Below, one piece after another: positions 32,483 to 37,729 of a DNA stretch of 64,000 nt. Within the stretch, counting starts at the first letter, position 1; each line of letters opens with the position of its first letter. The position numbers and the translations under genes are program-made. The stretch is taken from positions 124,001-188,000 of the forward strand of contig NZ_LBHJ01000003.1 in NCBI RefSeq assembly GCF_001006305.1, given 5' to 3'. Source of the stretch: Silvibacterium bohemicum. Its GTDB lineage: Bacteria > Acidobacteriota > Terriglobia > Terriglobales > Acidobacteriaceae. The notes below the pieces were generated by a model. It saw only the letters and a list, made by a program, of their open reading frames with translations, was not told the DNA's origin and made no database searches.

Positions 32483-32809
32483 CTAAAACAGGCCGGGCGG
32501 CAGGTTCAAGCCGCCCAGCATACCCTGCATGCTCGATTTCAGGAGATCTTCGGCGCGGCGTCCTGCTTCGTTGAAGGCCGCGGCGATCAAGTCTTCGAGC
32601 ATTTCGAGGTCGGTGCTGCTTCCACTGAGGCCGGCCACGGCTGCGGGATCGATGGTGACCTTGAGCACTTCTTTCTTGCCGTTCATCTTGACGGTGACGG
32701 CTCCGCCGCCGGAAGAGGCCTCGACGATGCTCTGGCTCAGCTTCTGCTGCATCTGCTCCTGCATCTCTTTGGCCTGGCCGAGCATTTCCTGAATCTTGAA
32801 TGGGTTCAC
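32483..32809 (-). CDS. ybaB: YbaB/EbfC family nucleoid-associated protein
   Basis: This is 108 aa. The GTG start has AGGAG seven bases upstream; the frame extends into dnaX but that is a shadow. The YbaB fold is clear: a long N-terminal helix (IQEMLGQAKEMQEQMQQKL), the strand motif GGGAVTVKMNGKKEVLKVTIDP, then a helical C-terminus DLEMLEDLIAAAFNEAGRRAE. It binds DNA as a dimer with tweezer-like geometry. It follows dnaX by 13 bases, the classic dnaX-ybaB pair; recR, often next, is not present here. Confidence 0.93.
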   Translation of the reverse strand: MNPFKIQEMLGQAKEMQEQMQQKLSQSIVEASSGGGAVTVKMNGKKEVLKVTIDPAAVAGLSGSSTDLEMLEDLIAAAFNEAGRRAEDLLKSSMQGMLGGLNLPPGLF

Positions 32810-32822
32810 GAGTCGACTCCTG

Positions 32823-34970
32823 TTACTTTCCTTCACGTAGATCGAGGACGCTGCGTACTTCCGCCCCAAACAGCTCCTGCGCCTGCTTGACCAGCGGATT
32901 TGCGAGCGCCATCGCCTGGATGCTCCCGGTTGCCGCAGGCTTCGCAGCCAATCGCGGGCCGGAGGAACTGCTTGCCGCACTGGCCTCGCCCGGAATGAAG
33001 GTGAGCTTCCGGTTTACGCCGATGGCGCGCAGCGCGCTCTTACAGATCTTATCCGCCTCCGCATTGATGGTGAGGCCGAGCATGGTCTTCTTGATACCGA
33101 CTTCGACCTCGATGCCGCCGCCCTTTTCGCGCCACTGACCGGCAGAGAGCAGAACCGCGGCCGTGCTGTGTCCCTGAGCTTCGAGAGCGGTCGAGATGGT
33201 ATCGCGGATCAGGTCGAGATCCAGCGAGTCGCTTGGGTCGGCTGCCAGAGCCAAAGCTCCCGAGGTGGTTTCAGAGGCGACGGGAGCTTTGATCGAAGTC
33301 GCGAGCTCGAGAGGCGCTGCCATGGCGAGCGATGAGACGGTGCTCACCGGATCGCTCACGACGACAGTCTCGGTCACGCGAATTTCAGCAATCGGCCGGC
33401 CGGCAATTGGGGCCGATGTCGGGGTTGAGGATATGGCGGCAATTGGGGCCGGAGCTTGTTCTTCGAGGAAATCTTCAATCGGGTCGGCGACCGCGACAGA
33501 TGCCGGGACTCGATCCAAAACGCGCTCAGAAGTCATCGCAACAGCGACAGGTGTCGGCAATGGAGCTGCCGGAGTTGGTGTCGCGGCCTCGCTCGTGATC
33601 TTGCGATTGCGGTCGGCGTCGAAGGGCGAGAAGGCCGGTTTTGATGGCTCCGGTGTGCGCGGCGCTGGGGATACGGCTGGCGAAGCAGTCGTAGTCCTTG
33701 GCTGCGCTGTCGAGCCTGCTGCGGGCGATGTTCTTGGCGCAGAAGACGGCGTCTGCGAACGCGCCGGCTGAGGCAATGCGCCTCCGCCGGTTGCCGATCT
33801 TGCCGGCGACGCAGGCAGCTTGCTGAGCAGCTCTTCGATGGGCAGCAGGCGGGTGAGGTGAACCAGCTTGATCAGCCCCAGTTCGAGGTGGAAGCGCTGT
33901 TCCTGGCGATAGTTCAGCTCATCGAAGGTGCGCAGCATGATCTGCAGGAAGCGGGTGAGATCTTCTTCGGAGAAGAGCAGTGCGGAGCGCGCCGCTCGCG
34001 CCCGCTCGTCTGGCGATATCTGCAGCAGCTCGGAGTTTTCACCGCCGATGCGCGCCATCAAAACGTTTCTCAGATAGCGGACGAACTGCCGGGCGAGCTG
34101 CGACGGGCTGTTGCCTGCATTCAGCAGGCGATTCAGCTCCTCGATGACTGTCGCGGTCTGGCCTTCGCCGATGGCATCCATCAGACGCTCGAAGACGGCG
34201 TTGGGAACGGTGCCCATCAGCTCGCGAATCTGCTCCGCATCCAGACGCGGCTGGCCGTCTTCAACCGGAGCGGAGGCGATGGCCTGGTCCATGATCGATA
34301 AGGCATCTCTCATCGATCCGTCGCCCGCTTCGGCGAGCAGCGCGAGCGCCGCGTCTTCCGCGGTGATGCCCTCTTTGGCGGCGATATCGCGAAGCTGCGC
34401 CAGAATGTCGTCGAACTTTACGGCGTGAAAGCTGAAATGCTGGCAGCGCGAGCGGATGGTCTGCGGAATATCCTCAGGCTGCGTGGTCGCCATCATGAAG
34501 ACGACATGGTCGGGCGGCTCTTCGAGCGTCTTCAGGAGCGCGTTGAAGGCCGCATCGGTGATCTGATGGGCTTCGTCGAGGATGTAGATCTTGTAGCGGT
34601 CGCGCGCTGGGCGATAGCGGGCGGCATCGCGCAGCTCGCGGATCTCATCAATGCCGCGATTGGTGGCCGCGTCGATCTCGATCACATCGACAGCGTTGCC
34701 GGCGCGGATCTCGGTGCAGGATTCGCAGATGGCGCACGGTTCGGGCGTGGGGCGCTGGGCCGAACCGATTTCGGTGCGGCAGTTGAGCGCCATGGCCAGG
34801 ATGCGGGCGATGGTGGTTTTGCCGATCCCTCGATGGCCGGAGAAGATGTATCCGTGAGCGATGCGGCCCTGGGACAGCGCATTCAACAGCGTGCGGGTGA
34901 CGTGATCCTGACCGGCAACGTCGGAAAAACGCTGCGGCCGATATTTGCGAGCTAGAACCTGATAAGCCAT
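32823..34970 (-). CDS. dnaX: DNA polymerase III subunit gamma/tau
   Basis: This is 715 aa. The AAA+ part shows Walker A (GHRGIGKTTIARIL), a zinc site with CAICESC plus an upstream Cys, Walker B (ILDEAHQITDAAFNALLK), and sensor regions; it starts MAYQVLARKYRPQRFSDVAGQ, the invariant opening. After residue 390 come a long Pro/Ala/Ser-rich linker (to about 560) and a tau-like C-terminal domain. It loads the beta clamp. I saw no A-rich slippery site of the E. coli kind in the linker region, so only the full-length form is annotated. Confidence 0.96.
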   Translation of the reverse strand: MAYQVLARKYRPQRFSDVAGQDHVTRTLLNALSQGRIAHGYIFSGHRGIGKTTIARILAMALNCRTEIGSAQRPTPEPCAICESCTEIRAGNAVDVIEIDAATNRGIDEIRELRDAARYRPARDRYKIYILDEAHQITDAAFNALLKTLEEPPDHVVFMMATTQPEDIPQTIRSRCQHFSFHAVKFDDILAQLRDIAAKEGITAEDAALALLAEAGDGSMRDALSIMDQAIASAPVEDGQPRLDAEQIRELMGTVPNAVFERLMDAIGEGQTATVIEELNRLLNAGNSPSQLARQFVRYLRNVLMARIGGENSELLQISPDERARAARSALLFSEEDLTRFLQIMLRTFDELNYRQEQRFHLELGLIKLVHLTRLLPIEELLSKLPASPARSATGGGALPQPARSQTPSSAPRTSPAAGSTAQPRTTTASPAVSPAPRTPEPSKPAFSPFDADRNRKITSEAATPTPAAPLPTPVAVAMTSERVLDRVPASVAVADPIEDFLEEQAPAPIAAISSTPTSAPIAGRPIAEIRVTETVVVSDPVSTVSSLAMAAPLELATSIKAPVASETTSGALALAADPSDSLDLDLIRDTISTALEAQGHSTAAVLLSAGQWREKGGGIEVEVGIKKTMLGLTINAEADKICKSALRAIGVNRKLTFIPGEASAASSSSGPRLAAKPAATGSIQAMALANPLVKQAQELFGAEVRSVLDLREGK

Positions 34971-35025: not shown

Positions 35026-35478
35026 TCAGCTCGAATGATCGGAGAGTGTGACGATCAGACCCGATTTGCGTCTTGGTTCCGGCAGCAGAATAGTTATTCC
35101 ACGATCGAAGGTGACGAGATGTCCCTGATGATGGATCGCTAACGCCAGAAGGTATGCATCTGTTGTTTGCTGGTGACCGGAGACGGATTGTCCGATCGAT
35201 GCAACCGCTTCGGGAAAGCTTAGATCATCGATCAGGAAATGGTGATAGGGACTTTCGATATTCCGACGGAGCAGCGCGGTGGCTTCGGCCGGACTCGGGG
35301 ATTCATTGGCAAAGGTTCGGTTGGAGACGATACGAACGAAGGCCAGCTGCGTTATCGCACATGTCGCCCAGCCCTTCTTTTCATTGACCTTGAACCACTC
35401 CAGCGCGGGGGGATGGTGGCGATGAGGCCGCCAGAGCAGAGCGATGAGGGTGTTCACGTCCAGGAGCGCTATCGACAC
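35026..35478 (-). CDS. vapC: PIN-domain ribonuclease toxin (VapC-like)
   Basis: This is 150 aa from a GTG start. The PIN acidic residues are in ALLDVNTLIAL (first Asp), the Thr-Asp pair TTDAYLLALA and VTFDRG. It would cleave RNA, commonly tRNA or rRNA, when free of its antitoxin. Its start overlaps the end of the antitoxin gene by ten bases, so the two are co-translated. The central part LIDDLSFPE is normal for TA-system PIN proteins of this size. Confidence 0.85.
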   Translation of the reverse strand: MSIALLDVNTLIALLWRPHRHHPPALEWFKVNEKKGWATCAITQLAFVRIVSNRTFANESPSPAEATALLRRNIESPYHHFLIDDLSFPEAVASIGQSVSGHQQTTDAYLLALAIHHQGHLVTFDRGITILLPEPRRKSGLIVTLSDHSS

Positions 35479-35729
35479 TTGAGTGCATCTTCCACTTCTT
35501 CCGCATCCAATTGGTCCTGGATCTTGCGAATATGCTCCAGCGTTACGACCGGGCTATCGGCCGGAGGATCGAATACATGCAGGCCATGAACGATTTTCGT
35601 TTTCACAGGCCGGTTTGCGCCCCTCCGGATCAGCTCCGAGGCGGCGCGGCCGAGGCTGATTTTGCGGCCTTCGGCGAATTGCTTCACTTGCTCTAAAACG
35701 TCGTCGTCGAGCGAAAGCGTGGTTCTCAT
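35469..35729 (-). CDS. ribbon-helix-helix antitoxin partner of the PIN toxin
   Basis: This is 86 aa from the ATG at 35727-35729; a TTG 36 bases earlier is in frame. The first 45 residues form a ribbon-helix-helix domain: the strand MRTTLSLDDDVLEQVKQFAE followed by KISLGRAASELIRRGA. The C-terminal part (VFDPPADSPVVTLEHIRKIQ) would bind and silence the PIN toxin. Such proteins repress their own operon. Confidence 0.8.
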   Translation of the reverse strand: MRTTLSLDDDVLEQVKQFAEGRKISLGRAASELIRRGANRPVKTKIVHGLHVFDPPADSPVVTLEHIRKIQDQLDAEEVEDALKCR

Positions 35730-35857
35730 CCTCTGATTGTCATCACTTCGATTAGTTGATGTCAAGAATGAGATTGCACATCATTTCCGTCTGTTGATGC
35801 GTAGTCCGGGTTTTGATGCGAATGCCTGTTTCCCGCTCCATCCACTATCCTGACGGC

Positions 35858-36450: not shown

Positions 36451-36960
36451 CTACTTGCCGCCAACCGCTCGTTTCTTTCCCGCCGGCTTGGCTTGTGTCT
36501 GCTTCTTTGCGGCCTTCTTCGCCTCGGCTCGCTTGGCGGCACGGGCACGCTTCTTGATCTCGTCGGGCGAGTACATCGACTTGCGGCAGTTGGCGGAGCC
36601 GCAGTTGCAGAGAGCCGCGTCGTCGTCGCCGTCGTAGAGGTTGTAGTCGTAGGTCAGCTCTTCTCCCGCGGCGATATTGCGCAGCGAGGAGATCCAGACG
36701 CGGCCTTTGAGCTCTTTCGTCTCGCAGTTCGGGTCGCAGGAGTGGTTGATGAACATGGCGAGACCGAAGCCGTCGATGACTTTGTCGCCGTTGCCCAGGC
36801 CGAAGAGGTAGGTGGTGGGGGAATCCTGATATTTTTCGTCGGCGCGCTCTTTGGAGATGTGCGGGCCGGTGTATTCGACGATGCGTGTGCGCTTGGAGAT
36901 CGGCCCGGTGGTGTAGCAGCCGGCGGCATGAATGGCGGACGAGCGAATGATCAGAGGCAT
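36451..36960 (-). CDS. SET-domain protein lysine methyltransferase with histone H1-like tail
   Basis: This is 169 aa. Nearly the whole length is a compact SET domain: an N-terminal SAIHAAGCYTTGPISKRTRIVEYTG, the cofactor and pseudoknot motif AMFINHSCDPNC, and GEELTYDYNL. It is followed by a post-SET zinc triad, CNCGSANC. The final 35 residues are Lys/Ala-rich (KKRARAAKRAEAKKAAKKQ), like a bacterial histone H1-type tail. It should transfer methyl from S-adenosylmethionine to a lysine of some protein. The tail could tether it to nucleic acid or be its own target. SET genes in free-living bacteria are uncommon but known. Confidence 0.9.
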   Translation of the reverse strand: MPLIIRSSAIHAAGCYTTGPISKRTRIVEYTGPHISKERADEKYQDSPTTYLFGLGNGDKVIDGFGLAMFINHSCDPNCETKELKGRVWISSLRNIAAGEELTYDYNLYDGDDDAALCNCGSANCRKSMYSPDEIKKRARAAKRAEAKKAAKKQTQAKPAGKKRAVGGK

Positions 36961-37030
36961 GAGACGTTTCTCGCCGAGTATACAGCCCTTTTGAGGAGTG
37001 GACGGTCTAAACTAGAAGAGAGCCTTTCGT

Positions 37031-37729
37031 ATGTCCGCTGCAAAAAATCTTCGAATGTTGGTGCTGCCACTGTTGCTGGGCACTGTGCCGGTCTTCGGAT
37101 TGCAGCAGAGCGCTCCGCCTCTGGCTCCAGCGCCACAAACCGCTCCGCCAAGGCCTCCCTATCAGACTCCTGGGCCACCGGCGAAGAAGCCGAGCACGGC
37201 TGAAGAGAATCCCTTCCCGGAAGACATCTCGCGCAAGGCTGCGGAAGGAGGCGATCCTTCTGCTCCTAACGCTCCATCGGCTCCGTCGCCGTCATCCCCC
37301 AGTTCGCCTGGCGACAAGCCTCCAGCTTCATCGGACAAGCCGGCTGCGCCCGGCGACGATGCCTCCTCCAGCCGCAGCAAGTTCCAGGGGCTGGGCGATG
37401 TCGCCGATGGCGATCGCACCTCGGACGGAGCGGGCGGATATGTGCTCAATCCCAAGCTCGCGGCTGATGACGTGAAGATTGGCGGGTTCTATCTCGACCG
37501 CCGCGATTACAAGGGAGCCTACGTGCGTTACAAAGAGGCGACCCTGGTAAATCCCGAAAGCGCAGACGCGGTTTTCGGATTGGCCGAGGCGGCTCGCGGC
37601 CTGGATCACAAGGACGAAGCGATCCAGAACTACCGCATTTATCTCGACGCCTTTCCCGACGCCAAGAAGGCAAAGGAAGCCCGGAAGGCCTTGGCTTCTC
37701 TGGGTGCGCCTGCCGACGCCGCGAAGTAG
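37031..37729 (+). CDS. exported tetratricopeptide-repeat protein with Pro/Ser-rich linker
   Basis: This is 232 aa. Residues 1-24 look like a signal peptide (RMLVLPLLLGTVPVFG). Residues 25-120 are a low-complexity Pro/Ala/Ser region. The last 80 residues hold about two TPR-like helical pairs: KIGGFYLDRRDYKGAYVRYKEA and ADAVFGLAEAARGLDHKDEAIQNYRIYLDAFP, ending KKAKEARKALASL. Such proteins serve as periplasmic scaffolds. It is divergent from the SET gene across 70 bases. Confidence 0.8.
   Translation: MSAAKNLRMLVLPLLLGTVPVFGLQQSAPPLAPAPQTAPPRPPYQTPGPPAKKPSTAEENPFPEDISRKAAEGGDPSAPNAPSAPSPSSPSSPGDKPPASSDKPAAPGDDASSSRSKFQGLGDVADGDRTSDGAGGYVLNPKLAADDVKIGGFYLDRRDYKGAYVRYKEATLVNPESADAVFGLAEAARGLDHKDEAIQNYRIYLDAFPDAKKAKEARKALASLGAPADAAK

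Follow-up and report, generated by a model that had tools for sequence, protein, structure and literature searches.

The SET-domain gene and its product

The window analysed here, a stretch of 64,000 nucleotides of Silvibacterium bohemicum DNA, carries on its minus strand (36451..36960) a gene encoding a SET-domain protein lysine methyltransferase of 169 residues, which is the sole PF00856 match in the assembly. The Pfam profile covers residues 14-107 (36640..36921, minus strand, coordinates derived from the residues) with a score of 67.8 bits (cut-off 22.4, E 1.3e-18), and this is the single domain of the protein, none besides being found in the Pfam scan. The reading frame lies at the very position given by a first-pass annotation, and the motifs quoted there are all present on this strand, namely NHSCDPNC (residues 72-79, 36724..36747), GEELTYDY (residues 99-106, 36643..36666) and the post-SET sequence CNCGSANC (residues 118-125, 36586..36609), the latter presumably forming a zinc site together with C75. 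Among 119 distinct orthologues, at least 95% retain each of the motif residues N72, H73, C75, N78, C79, Y104, Y106, C118, C120 and C125; we take Y104 to be the switch position and Y106 the catalytic tyrosine. Also R126, M129 and E134, which lie just past the post-SET cysteines and were absent from that annotation, are at least 95% conserved.

At E <= 0.01 the protein matches 131 distinct PDB sequences, and its closest solved relatives by sequence are eukaryotic MLL/SET1-type enzymes (E 1e-19). An AlphaFold model built from a 37-row alignment (pLDDT 80.5, pTM 0.63) supports a SET fold, as judged from its similarity to MLL3 (Foldseek E 9.1e-11), to SETD8 (VIA Z 14.8, rmsd 2.1, 111 aligned) and to yeast COMPASS (VIA Z 14.7, rmsd 2.0, 121 aligned). 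The SET fold and the catalytic motifs are common to the window protein and to the eukaryotic SET1/COMPASS-MLL and SETD8 enzymes, which among the matches listed are 27-42% identical to it over 105-127 residues, and the alignments with MLL3 and yeast SET1 have the same post-SET CxCx4C; unlike these enzymes, the window protein is bacterial and has no further domain. The Pfam profile, the PDB matches, the conserved residues and the fold model thus all agree with the lysine methyltransferase assignment made in the first-pass annotation, and the gene product is very probably a SET-domain protein lysine methyltransferase of the ordinary class.

The SET gene is a widely conserved and usually single-copy core gene of the Acidobacteriaceae. 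Counting its own genome in each case, matches are found in seven of the nine genomes of the genus, the two misses being assemblies that are 72% and 89% complete, and in 166 of 200 genomes of the order, 164 of which belong to the same family; 156 of these 166 genomes have a single match. In a sample of the phylum 88 of 297 genomes have a SET match, and when a plasmid-borne SET protein (see below) was used as query against a sample of the window's own class, 233 of 399 genomes matched. One contig of the survey (L114) is labelled Rhodanobacteraceae while its genome, G478, seems to belong to the window's class, so that the label or the bin may err. A phage origin of the gene was considered and discarded, no record of the phage collection matching the SET protein. 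Among the open-access papers searched, we found none on SET enzymes in Acidobacteriota.

The basic C-terminal extension

The SET domain and post-SET motif are followed by a basic extension (residues 126-169, 36454..36585, minus strand), which starts with the conserved RxxM....E stretch and includes 12 lysine, 5 arginine and 10 alanine residues among its 44 positions; in the AlphaFold model its residues 132-156 form one helix. We have compared this region across 138 family loci, each with an open reading frame, which correspond to 119 distinct sequences, 113 of them fitting the pattern CxCGxxxC. The statistics of the tail omit the 19 identical rows and the six distinct rows without this pattern (one of which, L106, is truncated), and the counts on conserved columns rest on all 119 distinct orthologues. 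Among the 113 tails the length varies from 8 to 109 residues (median 34), the fraction of lysine plus arginine from 0.10 to 0.50 (median 0.36) and the proportion of lysine among these basic residues from 0 to 0.87 (median 0.45), the tails being Arg-rich as often as Lys-rich. The basic character stands out from the surrounding genes: the mean K+R fraction over the last 30 residues is 0.37 in the SET proteins versus 0.04-0.21 in nine neighbour families, a background from which reverse-strand loci were left out and in which ybaB contributes three sequences. On the other hand, the mean identity of the 119 orthologues to the window protein is 0.68 over residues 1-125 and 0.55 over residues 126-136 versus 0.21 over residues 137-169.

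The first-pass annotation had held that a tail not conserved in orthologues would count against its reading; the sequence does vary, but the basic charge is kept. As charge rather than sequence is maintained, this region is more readily understood as a tether than as an H1 domain or a target of methylation, and its composition across orthologues suggests that a basic nucleic-acid tether is a likelier role for the tail than self-methylation. Outside the family, 20 loci belonging to other families of the Acidobacteriota were compared: 11 fit the C-terminal pattern and continue for 6-27 residues beyond it, and the remaining 9 differ in their post-SET and stop four residues past its last cysteine. 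A tail strictly limited to the family is doubtful, since two loci of the class that are about 38% identical to the window protein (L274 and L278) likewise end in a basic tail of 37 residues. The basic tail is fast-evolving and lineage-typical, and occurs mainly in the family of the window.

Two other roles that have to be weighed for the extension concern its lysines and its likeness to histone H1. The enzyme could methylate its own tail, which the earlier annotation had proposed as one of its options, and the lysine-rich tail might then act as an autoregulatory switch; the window tail has 12 lysines, and in the parts of PMC3980110 that deal with NUE this chlamydial SET protein is described as automethylating. 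However, the tail lysines are replaced by arginine or lost in orthologues: the best kept, K143, is lysine in 57 of 119 and every other lysine of the window tail is lower, the tail of one orthologue (L012) has one lysine versus 14 arginines, and in two of the 113 (L096 and L107, with 8 and 10 residues) there is almost no tail. With lysines, length and sequence all varying, self-methylation is disfavoured and we regard such a switch as quite improbable. The extension could instead be a genuine chromatin module of the H1 type joined to the SET domain, so that the protein itself would package DNA. The Lys/Ala-rich composition noted at the outset for the window tail is confirmed, and certain orthologue tails reach 79-109 residues and are rich in K, R, A, P and S, but homology does not follow, as no Pfam match to the histone, H1 or Hc1 families is found in the window protein (E <= 1), nor to histone-type families in eight orthologues whose tails measure 47-88 residues (E <= 5). 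Taken with the modelled single helix, the median of 34 residues and the near equality of arginine and lysine among the 113 tails, these searches leave an H1-type module with little probability.

Gene neighbourhoods in the family and on plasmids

Upstream of the SET gene the window has a divergent gene for a TPR-like protein (37031..37729, plus strand), with a signal-like N-terminus as judged by eye and Pfam TPR matches below the cut-off. Downstream and codirectional with SET lies dnaX, encoding DNA polymerase III gamma/tau (32823..34970, minus strand, Pfam), and next past it the gene of the nucleoid-associated protein YbaB/EbfC (32486..32815, minus strand, YbaB_DNA_bd 9.9e-27); the interval between SET and dnaX holds a GNAT gene as well as a PIN-domain gene accompanied by a likely antitoxin gene (the latter pair at 35026-35765). 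Among the best 80 of 167 relatives' loci, a selection in which near relatives are consequently over-represented, the divergent TPR-like gene is found in 71 of the 77 loci with room for it, dnaX at no more than 3 kb downstream in 44 of 60 (always codirectional, 44 of 44), and the 6 kb downstream of SET include ybaB in 35 and recR in 31 of 48 loci. Since the gap from SET to dnaX in these best 80 of 167 varies from 71 to 2945 bp (median 616), the arrangement amounts to a conserved position and not to a tight operon. The dnaX-ybaB-recR block is common to many bacteria, and the nearness of ybaB is therefore weak evidence for a functional link. Opposite SET a plus-strand open frame of 236 codons (36493-37203) is observed, of a kind that recurs in 12 of 81 loci, the window included; it is probably a mirror of codon bias.

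The same block is informative where SET is missing. Among the matches listed, dnaX is present in 20 of 20 SET-less relatives, and in 18 regions examined there are six, from two genera (L209-L212 in g2, L213 and L214 in g14), in which SET alone is absent and the flanking block is kept, with menC, GNAT, mazG, pilD and TPR upstream and ybaB and recR with dnaX; in the other 12 of the 18 regions TPR was not found near dnaX. The absence of SET from an intact flanking block in some relatives indicates that the gene is dispensable. In 20 loci from other Acidobacteriota families, dnaX, ybaB, recR, TPR and the other block genes accompany SET in none (0/20, within 10-14 kb).

We have also searched for nucleoid proteins, both in the genomes and beside SET. 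The window's own genome has three HU genes; HU with a lysine-rich tail was considered as a substrate and rejected, as the three proteins have no such tail, and an Hc1 or histone-fold partner was likewise set aside, Hc1 and PF00808 histones not being found in this genome. The co-occurrence of HU with SET is uninformative, HU being present in 41 of 41 genomes searched, including the SET-less G012, G101 and G147. The first-pass annotation had suggested a search for linked HU- or H1-like genes in relatives, and the outcome is divided: none of the best 80 of 167 family loci has HU or H-NS near SET (0/80), and 12 of 30 plasmid loci have one or the other. HU or H-NS is also missing near SET in the 20 loci from other Acidobacteriota families and in 30 short loci of the class. 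Among the places listed, the sole family case seen by eye is L182 (G203:C108), with HU 3.8 kb upstream of SET, which we treat as chance and not as a meaningful linkage.

The plasmid loci come from a protein search that returned 46 plasmid records with SET relatives, 43 of which are from Paraburkholderia, Caballeronia or Burkholderia. We have analysed 30 of these loci, corresponding to 22 of the 25 rows listed in a first search and the next eight by rank in a second, with H6, H14 and H15 omitted as apparent near-duplicates and H89 as belonging to the same record as H6. The Paraburkholderia and Caballeronia proteins are 36-42% identical to the window protein over the SET domain (25 rows, among the matches listed) and share its post-SET CxCx4C in 30 of 30. 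In contrast to the window protein they have no basic tail, ending with 7-18 residues in 30 of 30, and have isoleucine (ELFIDY type) in place of the switch tyrosine Y104 (ELTYDY); from this substitution, the methylation state of their product may differ from that of the window enzyme.

At 10 of the 30 plasmid loci an HU gene, identified by profile, lies within 2.4 kb of SET (L227, in which HU is truncated, L228, L232, L235, L236, L238, L241, L242, L245 and L280), and at two others (L286 and L287) a divergent H-NS gene lies 115-117 bp from it; with the two queries neither was found at the remaining 18, the H-NS query being one sequence that may miss divergent H-NS. Four arrangements are seen, with HU upstream and codirectional, HU divergent, HU downstream and H-NS divergent, and when the 30 proteins are grouped into seven clades (70% single linkage) four clades have an HU or H-NS neighbour. 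On five plasmids the HU beside SET is the only HU place among the matches listed. At the highest HU density seen in 12 plasmid records, among the matches listed, the expectation for 30 loci is at most 0.79 HU neighbours versus the 10 observed, and the chance of HU occurring in at least three of seven clades is ~6e-4 at this top density, a calculation that ignores unequal clade sizes and accessory-gene clustering. Judged from coordinates alone, HU and a partial SET match are ~0.6 kb apart in NZ_CP051517, and the HU place among the matches listed is far from SET in NC_018696, NZ_AP023181 and NZ_CP155075. At two loci small proteins with no Pfam match at E <= 0.01 are encoded directly upstream of the plasmid SET and codirectional with it (L247:3565-3915 and L244:3566-3916).

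A simpler cause of this nearness would be co-transport on a plasmid island, as integrase, KfrA or DUF1488 genes are also present at several of these loci. The pairing with HU and H-NS lends support, though no proof, to the idea that the wider SET group acts on a nucleoid protein. As the plasmid proteins are ~40% identical to the window enzyme and have no basic tail, this nucleoid link may not carry over to it. Among the open-access papers searched, we found none treating SET together with HU or H-NS.

Possible substrates and role of the enzyme

Considering domain, tail and neighbourhoods jointly, we tentatively favour an intracellular SET enzyme with a nucleic-acid-tethering tail and a nucleoid protein as substrate, a reading we consider possible though somewhat short of probable. 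The intact SET-domain lysine N-methyltransferase would act inside its own cell, where the Arg/Lys-rich extension might serve as an electrostatic tether holding the enzyme on DNA or RNA and might thereby bring it to substrates bound to nucleic acid. With less confidence, the substrate may be a nucleoid-associated protein, HU or YbaB being the candidates in its own genome. A tyrosine at the SET switch position suggests low methylation states, and since Y104 is a tyrosine the substrate lysine would be mono- or dimethylated.

Prokaryotic precedents point in the same direction. The chlamydial cpnSET is reported to methylate the H1-like Hc1 of its own bacterium in the sections of PMC3980110 and PMC10117894 that concern it, and in the relevant part of PMC3980110 the DNA-binding protein MC1-alpha is reported as a substrate of the archaeal Go1-SET, whereas Hc1 was methylated by cpnSET but not by NUE. 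Both cpnSET and NUE are bacterial SET enzymes like the window protein, and Go1-SET, as portrayed in the same part of that source, is a prokaryotic SET that is archaeal, these likenesses resting on description and not on sequence. The settings differ: NUE appears in those passages as a secreted effector, the window's genome gave no Hc1 to match the substrate setting of cpnSET, and PF00808 histones were not found in it, a difference from the setting of Go1-SET.

The foremost candidate substrates of the window enzyme are nucleoid proteins and ribosomal proteins. In eukaryotes, ribosomal proteins and elongation factors are among the known targets of SET enzymes. The substrate here could likewise be a ribosomal protein or a translation factor, with the basic tail binding rRNA, as an often Arg-rich tail with a modelled helix would be no less suited to RNA than to DNA. 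Against this, the ten window neighbours scanned with Pfam include no translation gene and the plasmid relatives adjoin HU and H-NS genes, and we consider a translational substrate somewhat unlikely. The top PDB sequence matches are eukaryotic histone methyltransferases and the protein has a match, weak and far below cut-off, to the AnkI/LegAS4 model, which could suggest a secreted effector acting on host histones in the manner of NUE; but the occurrence of SET in most genomes of the family, usually in single copy and in conserved synteny with dnaX, and relatives whose isolate or species names point to free-living Acidobacteriaceae, make this very improbable.

To return to a nucleoid-protein substrate, the first-pass annotation had raised the possibility of a bacterial chromatin-marking system. 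Such a system is a plausible candidate reading, to which the plasmid relatives lend more support than the tail does. In its broadest form, with the SETs of the wider group as native writers of lysine methylation on HU, H-NS and YbaB, represented in Acidobacteriaceae by a core gene whose product has a DNA-tethering tail, and on Burkholderiaceae megaplasmids by HU-SET or H-NS-SET pairs, we hold a chromatin mark to be rather doubtful. The core SET of Acidobacteriaceae and its plasmid relatives beside HU or H-NS offer small gene pairs that would allow direct tests outside infection models.
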